Assembly (NCBI RefSeq): GCF_020091585.1
Contig: NZ_CP083582.1
Coordinates: 6,334,536 to 6,398,535 of the forward strand
Reading direction: 5' to 3'
Length of the DNA: 64,000 nt
From: Kovacikia minuta CCNUW1
GTDB lineage: Bacteria; Cyanobacteriota; Cyanobacteriia; Leptolyngbyales; Leptolyngbyaceae
Part shown: positions 11,080 through 52,400 of the stretch, piece by piece
Numbering within the stretch: position 1 is the first letter of the stretch
Layout: each line of letters opens with the position of its first letter
Position numbers and translations under genes: made by a program
Notes under the pieces: model-generated
Told to the model about the DNA's origin: nothing
Seen by the model: the letters and a program-made list of their open reading frames with translations, nothing else
Database searches by the model: none

Positions 11080-11562
11080 CGCTCGCAACTTCGACCTCAA
11101 AGCTTGGACAATCGTGTTCAGAACATGAACGGTGAACTTCGGAGCTTGAGCGATCGTGCTTTAAGCATGAACGGTGAACCTCTGAGCTTGGAAGATCGTG
11201 TTCTGAGCATGAAACTTGAACCTCAGAACTCAGAATTTTGACCTCTGAGCTTGGACGATCGTGTTCAGACCTCGAACGTTGAACCTTTGAGCATGAACGT
11301 TGAACCTTTGACCTCGGAATTTCGACCTTTGAGGTTGAGCGATCGTGTTCTGACCTCGAACGTTGAACCTTTTAGCATGAACGTTAAACCTTTGACCTCG
11401 GAATTTTGCCCTTTGAGGTTGAGCGATCGTGTTCAGAACGCGAAACTTCGACCTTTGAGCTTGGGCGATCGTGTTCTGAGCATGAACGGTGAATCTTTGA
11501 AGTTGGGCGATCATACTCTGAACTCAAAACCTGGGCTTCTGAACACAAAACCTCAGCGCCTA
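11080..11562. repeat. 23 tandem units of 21 nt in perfect register
   Basis: Cutting the sequence every 21 bases from 11080 gives 23 consecutive related units with no insertion or deletion. Three unit types alternate: 'agcttggrcgatcgtgttctg', 'agcatgaacgktgaacctttg' and 'acctcggaattttgacctttg'. The phase divides by three. One forward frame therefore reads as heptapeptide repeats of the S-(L/M)-x-x-(E/R)-(P/V)-L kind. It is open over almost the entire array, broken only by a TGA at 11239-11241 where sister units have CGA or TGC. The reverse strand is also largely open. Whether it is coding, decayed coding or a noncoding minisatellite cannot be decided by eye. Confidence 0.9.
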
Positions 11563-26032: not shown

Positions 26033-26317
26033 AGTACGCCCTAATATTTCTAGTTCTGACTGATTGTGTGTTTTCTGAATTTACCTCCACCTCTGCCATT
26101 GATCGAGGAGGCGGTCAGGAAATTGCGTAGCCAATTGTGGTGGTAGTTGTCAAATGTCAACTACCTTTTTGAGAAATGACAGCTACTTGGCGGATTTATA
26201 GGATCGCAAAGACCCCATTTAGCATCATAAATACACAGAAATAAAAGCCATGATTCAATCATTTCTAGATTCAATACTTGATGTAGGGATAAACGAGTAA
26301 GGATTCATTGACGCAGA

Positions 26318-26445
26318 ACGACACTTGAGATCGAAGTGACAGTCAAGAACGAAATGACAAGCCAGATCGAAATGACAAGCCAGATCGAAATGACAAGTCG
26401 GATCAAAGTGACAACTAAGATCGCAACGACAACTAGGATCGGCAA
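26318..26445. repeat. 18-bp direct repeats near the IS21 end
   Basis: About seven consecutive 18-bp units follow the pattern 'gatcgaaatgacaagcca' and drift at their edges ('gatcgaagtgacagtcaa', 'gatcaaagtgacaactaa'). The 'aaatgaca' core resembles the terminal TGTCAAATGTCAAC of the element, so these may be multiple transposase-binding sites at this end. Confidence 0.75.
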
Positions 26446-45594: not shown

Positions 45595-45758
45595 TAAAGC
45601 CGTCGAATTTTGGTTACGCGAGGGCTGAGGGCTGAGGAGTGAGTGATTGCCTTTTCTCAGCACCCAGTCCTCAGTCTTAGCACCTTTAAAGCACGCCCTA
45701 CCACCTGACACCTGACACCTACCACCTACCACCTACCACCTACCACCTACCACCTACC
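45595..45758. repeat. Intergenic short-word repeat tract
   Basis: 'gagggctgagggctgaggag', 'cacctgacacctgacaccta' and six copies of 'ccacctac' fill the gap between dprA and the GNAT gene. Confidence 0.8.
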
Positions 45759-45759
45759 G

Positions 45760-46197
45760 ATGAACGAGCTGGTGATTAAACTTGCAGAACTCCCTTCAGA
45801 CTTGCCTCAAATTTATCGAATCAGGTACCTGGTCTTTCAAATTGAGCAGGGTGTTGACCCGTCTTTGGAGTTTGATGGCAAGGATGAGTCATCCCAGCAT
45901 CTTTTGGCGTACTGGCAGGAGAATGCGGTAGGGACTACCCGAATCCGGATGCTTGCCCCCAAAACCGCTAAAATTGAGCGGGTTGCAGTACTTCCCGAAG
46001 TTAGGGGATTGGGGATTGGTAAACAGATGATGGTCAAGGCGATCGAGATACTCAAGTCTGCCCAGGTTTCAGAGGTTCAAATGAATGCTCAGGAACAGGT
46101 GCGCGATTTCTATCAAAAACTTGGGTTCGAGCCAGAGGGTGCCGTGTTTGAAGAAGCGGGCATTCCCCATGTCAAGATGAGAAAGCTGTTGAGGTAG
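45760..46197 (+). CDS. GNAT-family N-acetyltransferase
   Basis: A 145-residue acetyltransferase of the ElaA/YjcF type. The N-terminal part IRYLVFQIEQGVDPSLEFDG is typical, and acetyl-CoA binding is in RVAVLPEVRGLGIGKQMMVK (about 74-93, Q/R-x-x-G-x-G/A). The C-terminal FYQKLGFEPEGAVFEEAGIP also fits. The acceptor substrate is unknown. The start ATG follows a repeat tract directly, and the gene ends 11 bases before the next start. Confidence 0.88.
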   Translation: MNELVIKLAELPSDLPQIYRIRYLVFQIEQGVDPSLEFDGKDESSQHLLAYWQENAVGTTRIRMLAPKTAKIERVAVLPEVRGLGIGKQMMVKAIEILKSAQVSEVQMNAQEQVRDFYQKLGFEPEGAVFEEAGIPHVKMRKLLR

Positions 46198-46207
46198 TTG
46201 GACTGCG

Positions 46208-49200
46208 TTGATAATCGGCAAGCAGTGGCATCCCTGGGTGAGAGGGCTGCCCGTTTTAGGAATCCTTTGGTTGGTGGGAGCGATGGTCGATCGCATCTGG
46301 TTCGCGATCGACCATAGCACCCCCAGTTGGGATCAGGCAGAATACCTGACCGGAGCACTCAACTACTGGCGGGCACTACAAACTCCCCAATGGTTCTCAG
46401 CGGATTGGTGGACTGGGTTATGGCAGTTATCCTCCAAAATCCCTCCCCTAGTCTACATTTCGACCGCTCCCTTCCTTACCCTGTTTGGAACCGGCCCCGA
46501 TCAAAGCACCTTAATAAATTTGCTCTACAGTGCTATTTTGCTGGGTTCCGTTTATACCCTGGGCACGTTCCTGTTCAACATTTCGGTTGGTCTGTGGGCT
46601 GCGGGTCTTTGTTTGCTACTGCCTGGTTTGTACCGTGTTCGACTGGACTACTTACTAGATTATCCCCTGGCAGCGATGGTGACTTTGAGCTTTACCTGTC
46701 TCACGATTTGGAGAGGGAGGGCTGAGGGAAGGGAGAAGGGGGAAGGGGATAGGAGGATGCGAGGACAGGGGGACGCAGAGACGCGGGGACACGGGGACAC
46801 GCGGGCAGAAAGTGGGAAAGGCAGGGAAGATGAGGGAGATGGGGAAGATGGAGGAGAAAGTCCATTCCCTACTCCCCACTTCCCACTCTCCATTCCCCAA
46901 TTCAAAATTCAAAATTCAAAATTCAAAATTCTTCCCTCTTCCTCCTGGCTTCTGGCTATTGCCTTGGGACTCACCTTCGGGTTGGCGTTGATGGTCAAGC
47001 AGCCTGCGTTGCTATTTCTCCTGGTGCCATTGGTTGCAGCAGCAGTAGAAACCCTCTGGAATCGTCGCTGGCTGCGCCTGGCCCAATTGGCGATGGCACT
47101 GACGGTATCGCTGTTGGTGTGGTGGCCCTGGTATCGGACAAATTGGTTACTTGTCTTAACCGCAGGTAAGCGGGCAACGGTGGATTCGGCGATCGCCGAG
47201 GGTGATCCTTCGCTCCTGTCTCTGGATGCCTGGACATTTTACCTGAAGGTACTCCCGCTGATGGTGTCATCCCCGTTACTGCTGGTTGGGTTGGCGGGAA
47301 TCGTGTTGTTTTGGCGACGATCGCGAGTCAGTAGCCGCTGGTTCGACAAACCAGACTATGCCCCAATGAAACGGGACTATCGCCAGCAGATCTATGTCGC
47401 CTCCCAACGATCCCTCAGTTGGCTGCTGCTGTTCTGTGTGGGCGGTTATCTTTTCTCCTCCCTCAACATCAACAAGGACGAGCGTTATGTTGTCCCCTAC
47501 CTGCCCACGATCGCCGTGATTCTAGCCTATGGCTTCACACTTTTTCCCCGGCACTGGCGCGGGTTGACCTGGGGGGCAGTGGGTCTGTCCAGCGTTTTGA
47601 TGATCTCTAATCTGTTTCCAATGCAACTGACGAATACGGCAGTGTTGCGCAATCCAGTTGCCTATCATCCTGCCTATTTGGGTTCGGAGTATCCCTATTC
47701 CAAGGTAGTAGCTGAGGTGATTCAAACCGAGCCTTACTTGCGCTCGACGATCGGCGTTTTGCCTTCGACTGCCGAAGTCAATCAGCACAACCTTAACTAC
47801 TACGGCAATTTGAAGAACTTTCAGGTCTATGGACGCCAGGTAGGCACCCGCCTAAAACAGGTGCAGCAAGACGGGCGATCGCTATCCTGGTTCATCACCA
47901 AAACGGGTAATCAGGGTTCCATTCGGAAGCAGGAAGCCCACAACGCGATCGTGCAACGGGTTGAACAGGGAGGTGATTTTCAACTCCACGCAACCTGGGC
48001 GATCCCCGATGGCAGCATGCTGAAGTTGTTTCGGCGTCAGATTCCATTGCTAAAGGTTGAGCCAAGTATTGAGCGAGAAGAAGGGCGTCAGGAGTCAGGA
48101 GTCAGGAGAGGGCAGGGGGCAGAAGAGGACACGGGGACACGGGGACACGGGGACACGGAGATAAAGGCAGAGGGCAGAGGGCAGAAGGCAGAAGGCAGCA
48201 TACAGTCCTCAGTCCTCAGTCCTCAGTCCTTGGCATCAACTCAAAACTCAAAACTCAAAACTCAAAACTCTTCCCCCACACCCCACTCCCTACTCCCCAC
48301 TCCCCATTCCAAAATTCAAAACTCTTCCCCCACACCCCACACCCCACACCCCACACCCCCCATTCGCCTGGAGCAAATGATCCTGCCCCCCAAAGCTCCT
48401 CCTGGGAAGCCGATCCCAGTAACCTACCGCTGGTCTGGTTCCTGGGACGCACTACAGTCTGGGCTGGTGCTGTTGACCTGGCGCAGTCAAAAGAACCTAT
48501 CCGTTCAGGGATCAACGCGCTGGTTGCACGACCACGGCATCGGCATGGGTTCCCTCCAACTTGATGGAGGAAAAACCCTCTCCGCGTCCCCCCGTCCCCG
48601 CGTCTCCCCATCCCCCGCCTCTCCTTCCTCGCCGCCATTTCAAGTTACAGAGCGCATGGCAATGCAACCTCCCACGGATTTGGCAGCGGGAATATATACG
48701 CTGGAAGCCATTTATCTGAATCGAAAAACGGGAGAAACCAGCACGATCGCCGTTCCACCCGTCAGATTGCAAATTGATCCTGCTGCAACTCCCACCGTCG
48801 CACCAGAACTGGATTGGCTCACCCAACTGCGATCGCTGGCGGCTGCCCTGCCCCAAGGTATCAAAGGGCTGAATCTTGCCTTTGATGAAATTGGCCGGTT
48901 GAATCAGTATGATCCGGTGCAGGACTACATCACTCAAACCCGTCAGGCAATGGAATATCGGCTCCAGCAGGAACCAGAAAACCGGGATTTTGCCTATGCC
49001 CTGGCACTGGCAAACGTGCTAAAGCGCAGGGTCAATCCAGCGATCGCGGCGATGCAGAAAGTGACGCAAGTTGACCCTCGCAATCCCAATGCTTACGCCT
49101 ATCTCGCCTTCGTCAACCTGTACGATTTCCGCCCCCAAGCCGCCCAAACTGCGCTTAACACTGCCCTCAAACTCAACCCCAACCTCCCAGAACTTCATGC

Positions 49201-49330: not shown

Positions 49331-49456
49331 GGGGGGGATAGGGGGATGGGAGGCATAGGCTGGTTATTAATCCTTTATCCTTCATCCTTTATCCTTCATC
49401 CTTTATCCTTCATCCTTTACCTGACACCTGACACCTGACACCTGACACCTGACACC
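49330..49456. repeat. Intergenic short-word repeat tract
   Basis: 'tcctttatccttcatcct' and 'gacacctgacacctgaca' words, with at least five copies of each word, separate the glycosyltransferase from the convergent hybrid kinase. Confidence 0.85.
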
Positions 49457-52400
49457 TCACAAGTACTTAAACAACAGTGATTCCAGTTCTGCCACATTCA
49501 CCGGTTTGCTGAGATAGTCATTTGCACCTGCGGTCACAAATTTTTCGCGATCGCCTGCCATTGCCATTGCCGTCACCATCACAACTGGAATAACATTCAA
49601 ATCAATTTGGCACCGGAGTTGGGTTAACAAATCCAAACCAGTCAGATCATCTGCCAATTGCATATCCAGCAAGATCAGGTCGGGCTTAAAGCAACGAACA
49701 CGGTCAAGAAATCCAACTCCGTTCGTCAGATGCTCAATTTGATGCCCGGTTGCCTGCAAGTAATCCCGTAAGAGCATGGCACTGCGAACATCATCCTCCA
49801 CCATTAGAATTCGTCCAATCCGGCAGAACTTTTGAATTGAGGGTAGGCGAGAAGCAGGTGAAGCTTCACAACTGGGTTGTTGAGCGGAAAACTGAGCCGG
49901 ATGGTCTGGTAGAAAAAGGGTAAATCGGCTGCCCTCACCTACCCTGGAGTCAACCGTAATCTCACCGCCATGCATGCAGGCAAGATTATGAGAAAGGGCT
50001 AATCCCAATCCGGTGCCACTATACTGGCGGTTCAGTTGGCTATCCAATTGGGAAAAGGGTTTAAACAGGAGAGGAAGCTTTTCAGCTGGAATCCCAATGC
50101 CTGTATCGACAACCGAAAAGGTAATTCCTCCAGTTTCTTTCGCCACAATCAAAGAGACGCTCCCGGATGGAGTGAATTTGATCGCATTCGACAGTAAATT
50201 GAGCAAAATTTGCTTCAGACGACGTTCATCAGCAAAACAGGTGCTGACAGCGGGTTCAATCTGGCTTGTTAGAGCCAACTTACGATCGTGGGCCTGCTCT
50301 CGAACCAATGCCAGACAATACTGGCACACATCAGAAACCACCAGGATGATTGGCGTTAAAATTTCTCGCCCTGCCTCAACTTTTGCTAAATCGAGAATGT
50401 CATTGATTAACAGCAACAAATGCTCGCCGCTGCTGTGGATGTGATTAATGTATTCAAGCTGCTTTTCATTCAGCGGTCCAAAAATCTGCCGTTCCAGGAG
50501 TTGAGACAGACCTAAGACCGCGTTTAAGGGGGTGCGCAACTCATGACTCATGGTTGCCAGAAATTCGCTCTTGGCACGGTTTGCTGCTTCCGAAATCAGC
50601 TTCTCCTGCTCTAGTTCCTGAGTCCGATCCTGAACCAGTTGTTCCAGTTGTTCATAGCTCTGGGCGTTGTAAAGAGCAATCACTGCCTGGTCTGCAATTC
50701 GTTGCAGCAGGGAGATCTCTTCGTCTGTAAAGGTCCGATAGTGGGTAACAGTGTGTAAGGTAAACGAGCCAAAAAGTTGATCTCGAATAAAAATGGGCAC
50801 GCTCAAAACTGAGCGCGTTTGTGCTTCTTGCACCCAATTTTGACGGGTTTCGGTTTGCTCTAGTTGACTCAAATCAGGCGCATGGAAGACTCCTCGCTGG
50901 TTAAAGGCGGACTCCGGATCTTGTAAATCGGGCCATTCGGTTAAAGGCGCATTAAAGTCCAACAACGAAAGAATCTGGTCGTTTGCCCGCCATTCATGAA
51001 GGGTTTGAATTTGTTTACCCAGACTAAAAATGAGTACCCGGTCAACCGCAAAACACTCCCCTGTGCGATTAACAATCTCTTGCAAAATATGGGCCGGATC
51101 GAAACTGGAGCTTAAGGATTGACTCAGTTGATTGAGGAGTTGCTCTCGTTGCGCTTGCTGCTGAACTTGAGCAAAAAGTTGTGCCTGTTGAATGGCGATC
51201 GCAACTTGGATTGCCAACTGTTGCAGAAAATCGATTTCAAAGGCTTGCCATTGGCGTGTAGCAGAACACTGATGGACTGCAATCACTCCCCAGACCTGCT
51301 CCCCTTGCAAAATGGGAACCACAAGTTTGGCTCGCACCTGGAGCGTGTGGATAAACTCCAGAAATTGGGTGGAAAGCCCCTGTTGGTCAACATCATTGAC
51401 AACCGATGTTTGCCCCTGTTCGTAGATCGCCTGACCATCTCGATACCAGGTACGGTGGAATTCGATCGCATCGTCAAGATTCCATTCAGGCGCAACCGAG
51501 TCAGCAACCAGCACACCAGAGTGAGCCTGATCAAATCGATAAATCAAAACCCGATCGGTTTGCAAAAATTGGCGCACTTCAACCACTGTGCGGCAAAGAA
51601 TTTCCGTTAGATCCAGGGATTGGCGAATGCGGAGGGCAATTGCACTGAGCAATCGATCGCGCTCAGCCTGTTGCTGAAGCTGAACTTCAACCCGTCTTTG
51701 TTCGGTAATATCCCGTCCGGTCGCCTGAAACTCAATCAACTGTCCCTGTTCGTCCAACAGCATCCGATTCGTCCACTGCCAGCAGCGAACTTCCCCATCC
51801 CCTATCCTGAAAGATTCATCGTAGGTCACCACAGGATTCTCAGGGCTGAGGGAAGCAATCAATGTCCGAATTTTTTCCTGTTCTGTTTGGGCAACAAAAG
51901 GCAAGAAACTTTGTCCCAATAGTTCCTGTCGTGATTTGCCATGACAACGACAATAGGCATCATTGACAAAGGTCAGAGTGTAATCGGACAGATAGCGACA
52001 GATCATATCGGTTTGATCTTCAACCACTGCCCGGTAACGGGACTGACTCCGTTGGAGTGCCTCGGCAAATTGCTGACGTTCAATAATTTCTGCTTGCAAG
52101 GCGGCGATCGCACCTGCCAGTTCTTTTGTGCGGATTGCGACCCGTACTTCTAATTCCTCTTTCGCCTGGTCTAGAAGACGTGCCTGATTTCGGAGGGTTT
52201 GTGCCTGTTGCTCTAACAGTTCATGGGCTTGTTTTCGCTCAGTGATATCAACCGAAATTCCCACAAACCCAATCGTATTTCCTGCCGTATCTCTAATTAA
52301 AGTATTGGTTACATCTGCCCAAAAAGTGCTGTCATCTTTTCGGCGTAAGATAATCTCTCCCTGCCACAAATCTTTTCTGGAGGTAATGGACAGAATTTTT

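Follow-up and report, generated by a model that had tools for sequence, protein, structure and literature searches.

Heptanucleotide islands lie in frame inside ordinary genes of Kovacikia minuta CCNUW1, where 34 island units were found in 25 of 791 called genes. Nearly all islands that have two arms are polar, with words of the G strand on the left and words of the C strand on the right. A membrane glycosyltransferase gene in the stretch of 64,000 nucleotides that was analysed (the window) carries two such islands, and the same loops of this protein hold different words in other cyanobacteria. These are probably composite islands of STRR type that form or insert largely irrespective of coding, and that genes retain only in loops and with the reading frame left open. 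Relative to known heptamer repeats, the polarity rule is the new element of this analysis.

Heptad islands of the glycosyltransferase gene and its orthologues

Pfam recognizes PMT and TPR in the 1040-aa product of the host gene, and the AlphaFold model of this protein (pTM 0.85) has ArnT (5ezm and 5f15) as best Foldseek matches among solved structures. Two islands in this gene, I1 and I2, contain arrays of 7-nt (some 8-nt) words that TRF places at 46763-46931 and 48087-48359; the island boundaries given in Table 1 were set from an alignment to 61 orthologues. I1 begins with a G-rich part (about 46715-46857) and continues with a C-rich part and an AATTCAA array (about 46858-46942). I2 has the G words GTCAGGA, GGACACGG (8 nt) and AAGGCAG, followed by the C words CAGTCCT, AACTCAA, CCCCACT and CCCCACA. 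As the original prediction had it from the letters alone, the frame is open over the whole gene, the orthologue alignments confirm conserved sequence on both sides of the inserts, and the inserts lie in loops. pLDDT falls below 50 only in the insert loops (residues 195-238 with small gaps, 632-711, and 791-799 with one gap) and in the last four residues, and the model shows inserts that are predicted to be disordered.

Three repeat sites had been claimed in this gene; I1 and I2 proved to be clear 7-nt islands, but I3 is neither a 7-nt array nor a carrier of words shared above chance. No 7-nt run of at least 10 is present at I3 in any of the 62 aligned rows, host gene included, and the occurrence of its 11-mers elsewhere is no higher than for 22% of random coding segments. 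Having neither such a run nor words above the null, I3 was not upheld as a member of the heptad class; its loop has 25 residues vs a median of 10 (62 rows). A fourth site, missed by the earlier reading, is weakly indicated at the C-terminus of the glycosyltransferase; of 29 orthologue rows, almost all have a shorter C-terminus and one matches it in length. In addition, the window contains overlapping 21/42/84-nt tandem arrays (11124-11512, TRF), whose unit length is unlike that of the 7-nt islands though made of multiples of 7, and a tandem array of 18/36/54 nt (26317-26441, TRF).

Table 1. Repeat features and host gene, in positions of the window
Feature	Position	Strand	Basis
Intergenic heptad island, words GAGTTTT, CAGTGAA, TGATAAC, AACTTAA	4683..4894	+	TRF
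Intergenic CCTACCA array, directly upstream of the GNAT gene (45760-46197, Pfam GNAT)	45697..45758	+	TRF; words abundant elsewhere
ArnT-like GT-C membrane glycosyltransferase with C-terminal TPR, 1040 aa	46208..49330	+	ORF list, Pfam, AlphaFold, Foldseek
I1, in-frame heptad island	46715..46942	+	TRF, alignment to 61 orthologues, pLDDT
I2, in-frame heptad island	48065..48361	+	TRF, peptide recurrence, alignment, pLDDT
I3, short C-rich loop, imperfect 8/16-nt period	~48572..48640	+	TRF, alignment, word null, pLDDT
Weak G-rich stretch that lengthens the C-terminus and continues beyond the stop codon	49286..49346	+	TRF, alignment, words
Intergenic arrays ATCCTTT/ATCCTTC then ACCTGAC, 3' of the glycosyltransferase gene	49370..49461	+	TRF; words abundant elsewhere

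The insert alignment comprises 62 rows, namely the host gene and 61 of 101 prepared ORFs (at least 780 aa). The orthologue hosts are cyanobacteria, and the orthologue search gave no match in 7 of 58 genomes. With the host gene counted, a 7-nt run of at least 10 is found at I1 in 11 rows and at I2 in 7 rows; the remainder of the same genes (142,533 bp) contains 5 such runs, one of them made of N and two with CGATCG. The array words at these loops vary between species. Array carriers include records of Okeania, Limnofasciculus, Fischerella and Richelia, and they do not group together in a tree of 31 rows that holds part of the carriers; furthermore, the two rows nearest the host gene in this tree are without arrays. 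Inheritance of the inserts within a clade was rejected since the carriers fail to form one. There may have been a single early gain of the inserts, followed by losses.

Array-free orthologues have a median loop of 32 residues at I1 and of 10 at I2. Long unrelated loops are carried by 4 of the 51 array-free rows at I1 (68-82 residues vs 78 in the host gene) and by 1 of 55 at I2 (65 residues vs 100 in the host gene). A comparable site exists in LarC, where arrays occupy one loop in 7 of 30 rows, with words that differ by cyanobacterium as in the glycosyltransferase, and where the loop exceeds the query's 87 residues in 3 of 23 array-free rows. Equally long, unrelated loops in repeat-free orthologues had been named beforehand as the observation that would count against inserted repeats, and they were found in this part of the rows; the three sites are therefore indel-tolerant loops in general. 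LarC (L096:10441-12075) also has a second variable loop, His-rich and without 7-nt arrays, that varies in most of the 30 rows.

Islands in spacers and in coding sequences

For a 10% sample of the genome, 40 pieces of 20 kb were drawn from the main contig by stratified random choice and combined with the window to a total of 864 kb. Counts of perfect tandem runs are 127 for period 7 but only 2 for period 6 and 7 for period 8, and none of period 7 appeared in shuffled sequence. The 287 arrays of the sample are covered by 84 word classes. Genes were called with a purpose-built dicodon gene finder, and the called genes make up 82% of the sample. The sample has 219 islands: 157 lie in spacers and 37 inside genes (internal), the remaining 25 being at an edge or uncertain; merging islands within 100 bp of each other gave 209 units with fuzzy ends, 34 of them internal. 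The claim that the gene contains the same words as the spacers held in the sample and in a search of the genome, where these words were met again in spacers and in further open frames. The same repeat class was also looked for in other genes, as had been proposed, with the in-frame result given above. Some non-periodic junctions between words recur across units as well. The I2 peptide has 128 matches in the genome at E <=0.01, and long open frames contain many of these. In this count a site with overlapping frames enters more than once, and being open does not by itself make a frame a gene. Some inserts fall within conserved Pfam domains, most clearly in LarC, residues 5-530 of which match a 375-position profile.

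The sample contains other features of note. A dispersed non-heptad repeat of MITE-like look, with a palindromic core around AGAAACCCGGTTTCT, is present at 12 separate places of the 864 kb (among them L070 16022, L071 13786, L075 13840, L077 1413, L079 12534 and L080 15525). Moreover, a short ORF (L098:18297-18620) that is followed by a heptad unit aligns to the cytochrome b561 model (179 positions) from position 95 to 177 only, and may be a truncated gene.

Intergenic units have a density of 0.98 per kb. If insertion were uniform and an insert survived only by containing no stop (34% of frames) and by preserving the frame (one third), coding-blind insertion would leave 80 internal units, a figure that depends on uniform insertion and on our own gene calls; the 34 units observed are, roughly, of the order expected for coding-blind arrival followed by such a filter. 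Stops are absent from 62 of 63 internal arrays, which is partly circular since an internal island is defined by its open frame. Besides, 22 same-strand gene pairs that tightly flank an intergenic unit were listed (15 Pfam-matched on both sides, 6 with one side lacking a match, 1 with an unscanned partner), and none of the 15 judgeable pairs consists of the two halves of one gene. The proposal of a mechanism that tolerates coding DNA and of retained in-frame events thus stood in part: it is supported by the in-frame units, by their number and by the lack of split genes among these pairs, but weakened by the third insert and by the long array-free loops. The repeats may have spread, as words are shared genome-wide, but we found neither a common core (non-periodic 18-mers common to at least three units touch only 37 of 209 units) nor a mobilising gene beside the arrays nor an empty site at the DNA level, the nearest of 30 other tree rows having 74% protein identity.

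Polarity of the islands

Words richer in G than in C were called G, and pairs with an equal-G/C word were set aside. In the 864-kb sample, array pairs less than 100 bp apart are ordered G-then-C in 50 cases and C-then-G in 1. The order is inverted at 200-2000 bp (G-then-C 10 vs 43), as expected because such pairs span separate units. When the 75 units of at least 60 bp were split, 53 were found to run from G to C and none in reverse, 22 showing neither. One-armed units are true to their side of the spacer, the left half for G-only units (39 of 57) and the right half for C-only units (36 of 41). In spacers of this genome that bear arrays, skew is positive on the left and negative on the right in each of the four gene contexts, with left above right in 115 of 145 spacers, which rules out polarity driven by transcription. 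Array-free spacers of the genome have little skew (176 of 312 left above right); the direction of the islands also prevails in array-free spacers of 80 named loci (124 of 187), which blunts the rule.

Near pairs pooled over other genomes are ordered G-then-C by 26:4. The counts are 7:0 in the near relative G003, 2:1 in G032, 1:0 in G013, 6:0 in the 80 named loci, 3:0 in Calothrix NIES-4105, 4:1 in Calothrix parasitica NIES-267 and 3:2 in Scytonema NIES-4073; near pairs were not found in G019, G022, G025, G029 and G051. The heptads of Scytonema NIES-4073 are sparse and without clear polarity in the 400-kb sample (L271-L290), where the two orders are taken by 2 and 2 of 9 units. Hence, polarity is strongest in our genome and in G003 and is not seen in this Scytonema; since its counts are unlike those of K. 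minuta, the rule may be lineage-specific.

Inserts of orthologues can also be compared by halves. The left half is more G-skewed in 11/11 array rows vs 36/47 array-free rows at I1, and in 7/7 vs 24/55 at I2. Because the array-free rows of I1 also lean to G on the left, I1 is weak evidence of polarity and I2 alone is informative among these inserts. The array rows of LarC follow the rule in 6 of 7 cases, one being opposite. Among the titles and abstracts of open-access papers that were searched, we found none describing a polarity that holds between different words or a census of in-frame heptads, which does not prove that none exists.

The two arms of a unit are largely independent of each other. 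Complementary words were found in 0 of 54 innermost G/C pairs (1.7 in shuffles), and only 1 of 43 units has any complementary word between its arms (2.46 in shuffles). The arm-swap alignment test gave a mean percentile of 0.52, and a unit's own partner arm is the best pairing in 7 of 53 two-armed units. Since the arms are non-complementary, a palindrome or fold-back copying was ruled out for most units, this hairpin minority of 7 staying. When right-arm words are read on the G strand, 37 of 62 also occur as left-arm words. Growth of the G strand from the 3' end at either side of a break or gap would give polarity together with independent arms.

Origin of the islands and comparison with known repeats

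In the composite-island explanation that we favour, islands would lengthen by slippage in 7-nt steps and would also copy words from other islands, while selection would purge the events that break frame or fold. The non-periodic junctions that recur between units are as copying would give; no strain pair displays an insertion event. Slippage alone accounts for neither the polarity nor the shared vocabulary. Hence, a purely local process, in which tolerant loops turn low-complexity in place and sites exchange no words, is rather unlikely: although the sites are indel-tolerant and heptads have been proposed to favour polymerase slippage (Mrazek, as related in PMC4679880 and PMC4692102), identical words and some of their junctions recur genome-wide and the polarity is consistent at unrelated sites. 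An assembly or sequencing artefact has hardly any likelihood. Short repeats are hard to assemble, but independent assemblies of many species carry the repeat class at the same loops, the host frame is open throughout the inserts and the genome itself was assembled in 3 contigs. The islands could also derive from a palindromic mobile element (REPIN-, MITE- or Rickettsia-palindromic-element-like) that inserted in genes and decayed into heptads, and the islands are indeed dispersed, two-armed and present in genes, with a minority that pairs best with its own arm; the genome has, moreover, 10 matches to Y1 transposases. We consider this origin improbable, as most arms are non-complementary, a core is lacking and arrays are scarce near the Y1 genes: no array was found within 1.8 kb of the two longer ones, and at the four IS200-sized loci, one or two short arrays lie about 330-400 bp away in two cases and none in the others. 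An association of the RAYT/REPIN kind is not favoured by these counts. Rickettsia palindromic elements are palindromic families with a consensus that lie in frame inside protein-coding genes; the islands resemble them in being in-frame repeats of coding genes but differ by their lack of a common core and their mostly non-complementary arms. Involvement of a reverse transcriptase was rejected as well, since the flanks fetched around the 4 matches in the genome are free of arrays; judged by eye, one of these matches resembles a group II intron maturase.

What might underlie the composite islands is growth at two ends, in which the 3' ends at a break or gap gain G-strand heptads and are then joined, so that both strands read G then C, much as when telomere repeats are added at breaks; it would be a mechanism beneath the favoured explanation and not opposed to it. 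It is possible that G-strand repeats are added in this way to the 3' end on each side before rejoining, which would produce the polarity. The near pairs and split units, the single sign of polarity across the gene contexts, the independence of the arms, the vocabulary that right arms share with left arms and the side-true one-armed units all favour such growth. Against it, a candidate enzyme is lacking, Ku is absent from 34 of 34 genomes (which rules out Ku-type end joining), Scytonema NIES-4073 is without polarity, the array-free spacers of the named loci lean alike, and the polarity may instead be inherited by copying from a polar ancestral unit. We know of no telomerase-like enzyme of this kind in bacteria. 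We thus regard two-ended growth as unlikely on balance, and speculate with the same reserve that a bacterial DNA-end reaction adds fixed-length, many-word G-strand heptamers to both 3' ends at breaks or gaps prior to their rejoining, leaving convergent non-complementary islands whose in-frame survivors are new disordered loops. Whatever its cause, a polarity that is independent of gene direction and of arm complementarity constrains models of island formation and is directly testable. In-frame islands can be viewed as supplying ordinary enzymes with novel disordered stretches, and they show where host proteins permit insertion.

I1 and I2 belong to the known STRR-type heptamer repeats of cyanobacteria: they are made of 7-nt tandem units of a class that is dispersed and chiefly intergenic (157/219 islands), and their host is a cyanobacterium. 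According to Rehm 2015 (PMC4692102), such repeats were described in 1990 (Mazel, cited therein), and those of Nostoc PCC 7120 are 68% intergenic, which leaves a sizeable share within genes; few are paired in Nostoc, and one heptamer forms 70 and 75 convergent pairs in two xanthomonads. The likeness to the STRR of that account lies in 7-nt tandem words placed mostly between genes and chromosome-wide, and the differences in the many words, the multi-word in-frame inserts and a polarity between different words, as opposed to the few paired repeats of Nostoc. Tandem repeats of Borgs, as presented in PMC9879509, likewise occupy spacers and ORFs and yield disordered protein segments, but they are A-rich repeats of archaeal extrachromosomal elements, whereas the islands are 7-nt words with G/C-skewed arms in a bacterial chromosome. 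The constant-length, variable-sequence tandem repeats of Bacillus (PMC8161180) also combine a fixed length with a varying sequence, with units of 52 or 20-21 nt and not 7. Finally, mammalian interstitial telomeric sequences are, according to PMC7215372, short G-strand repeats put in at breaks, as two-ended growth would have it; the telomere-like arrangement, with the G strand 3' at both ends, prevails in K. minuta (50:1 and 53:0) and elsewhere (26:4), Scytonema having 3:2. Unlike the islands, these sequences are a telomerase product, and none is reported in human exons because stops would arise in both orientations.
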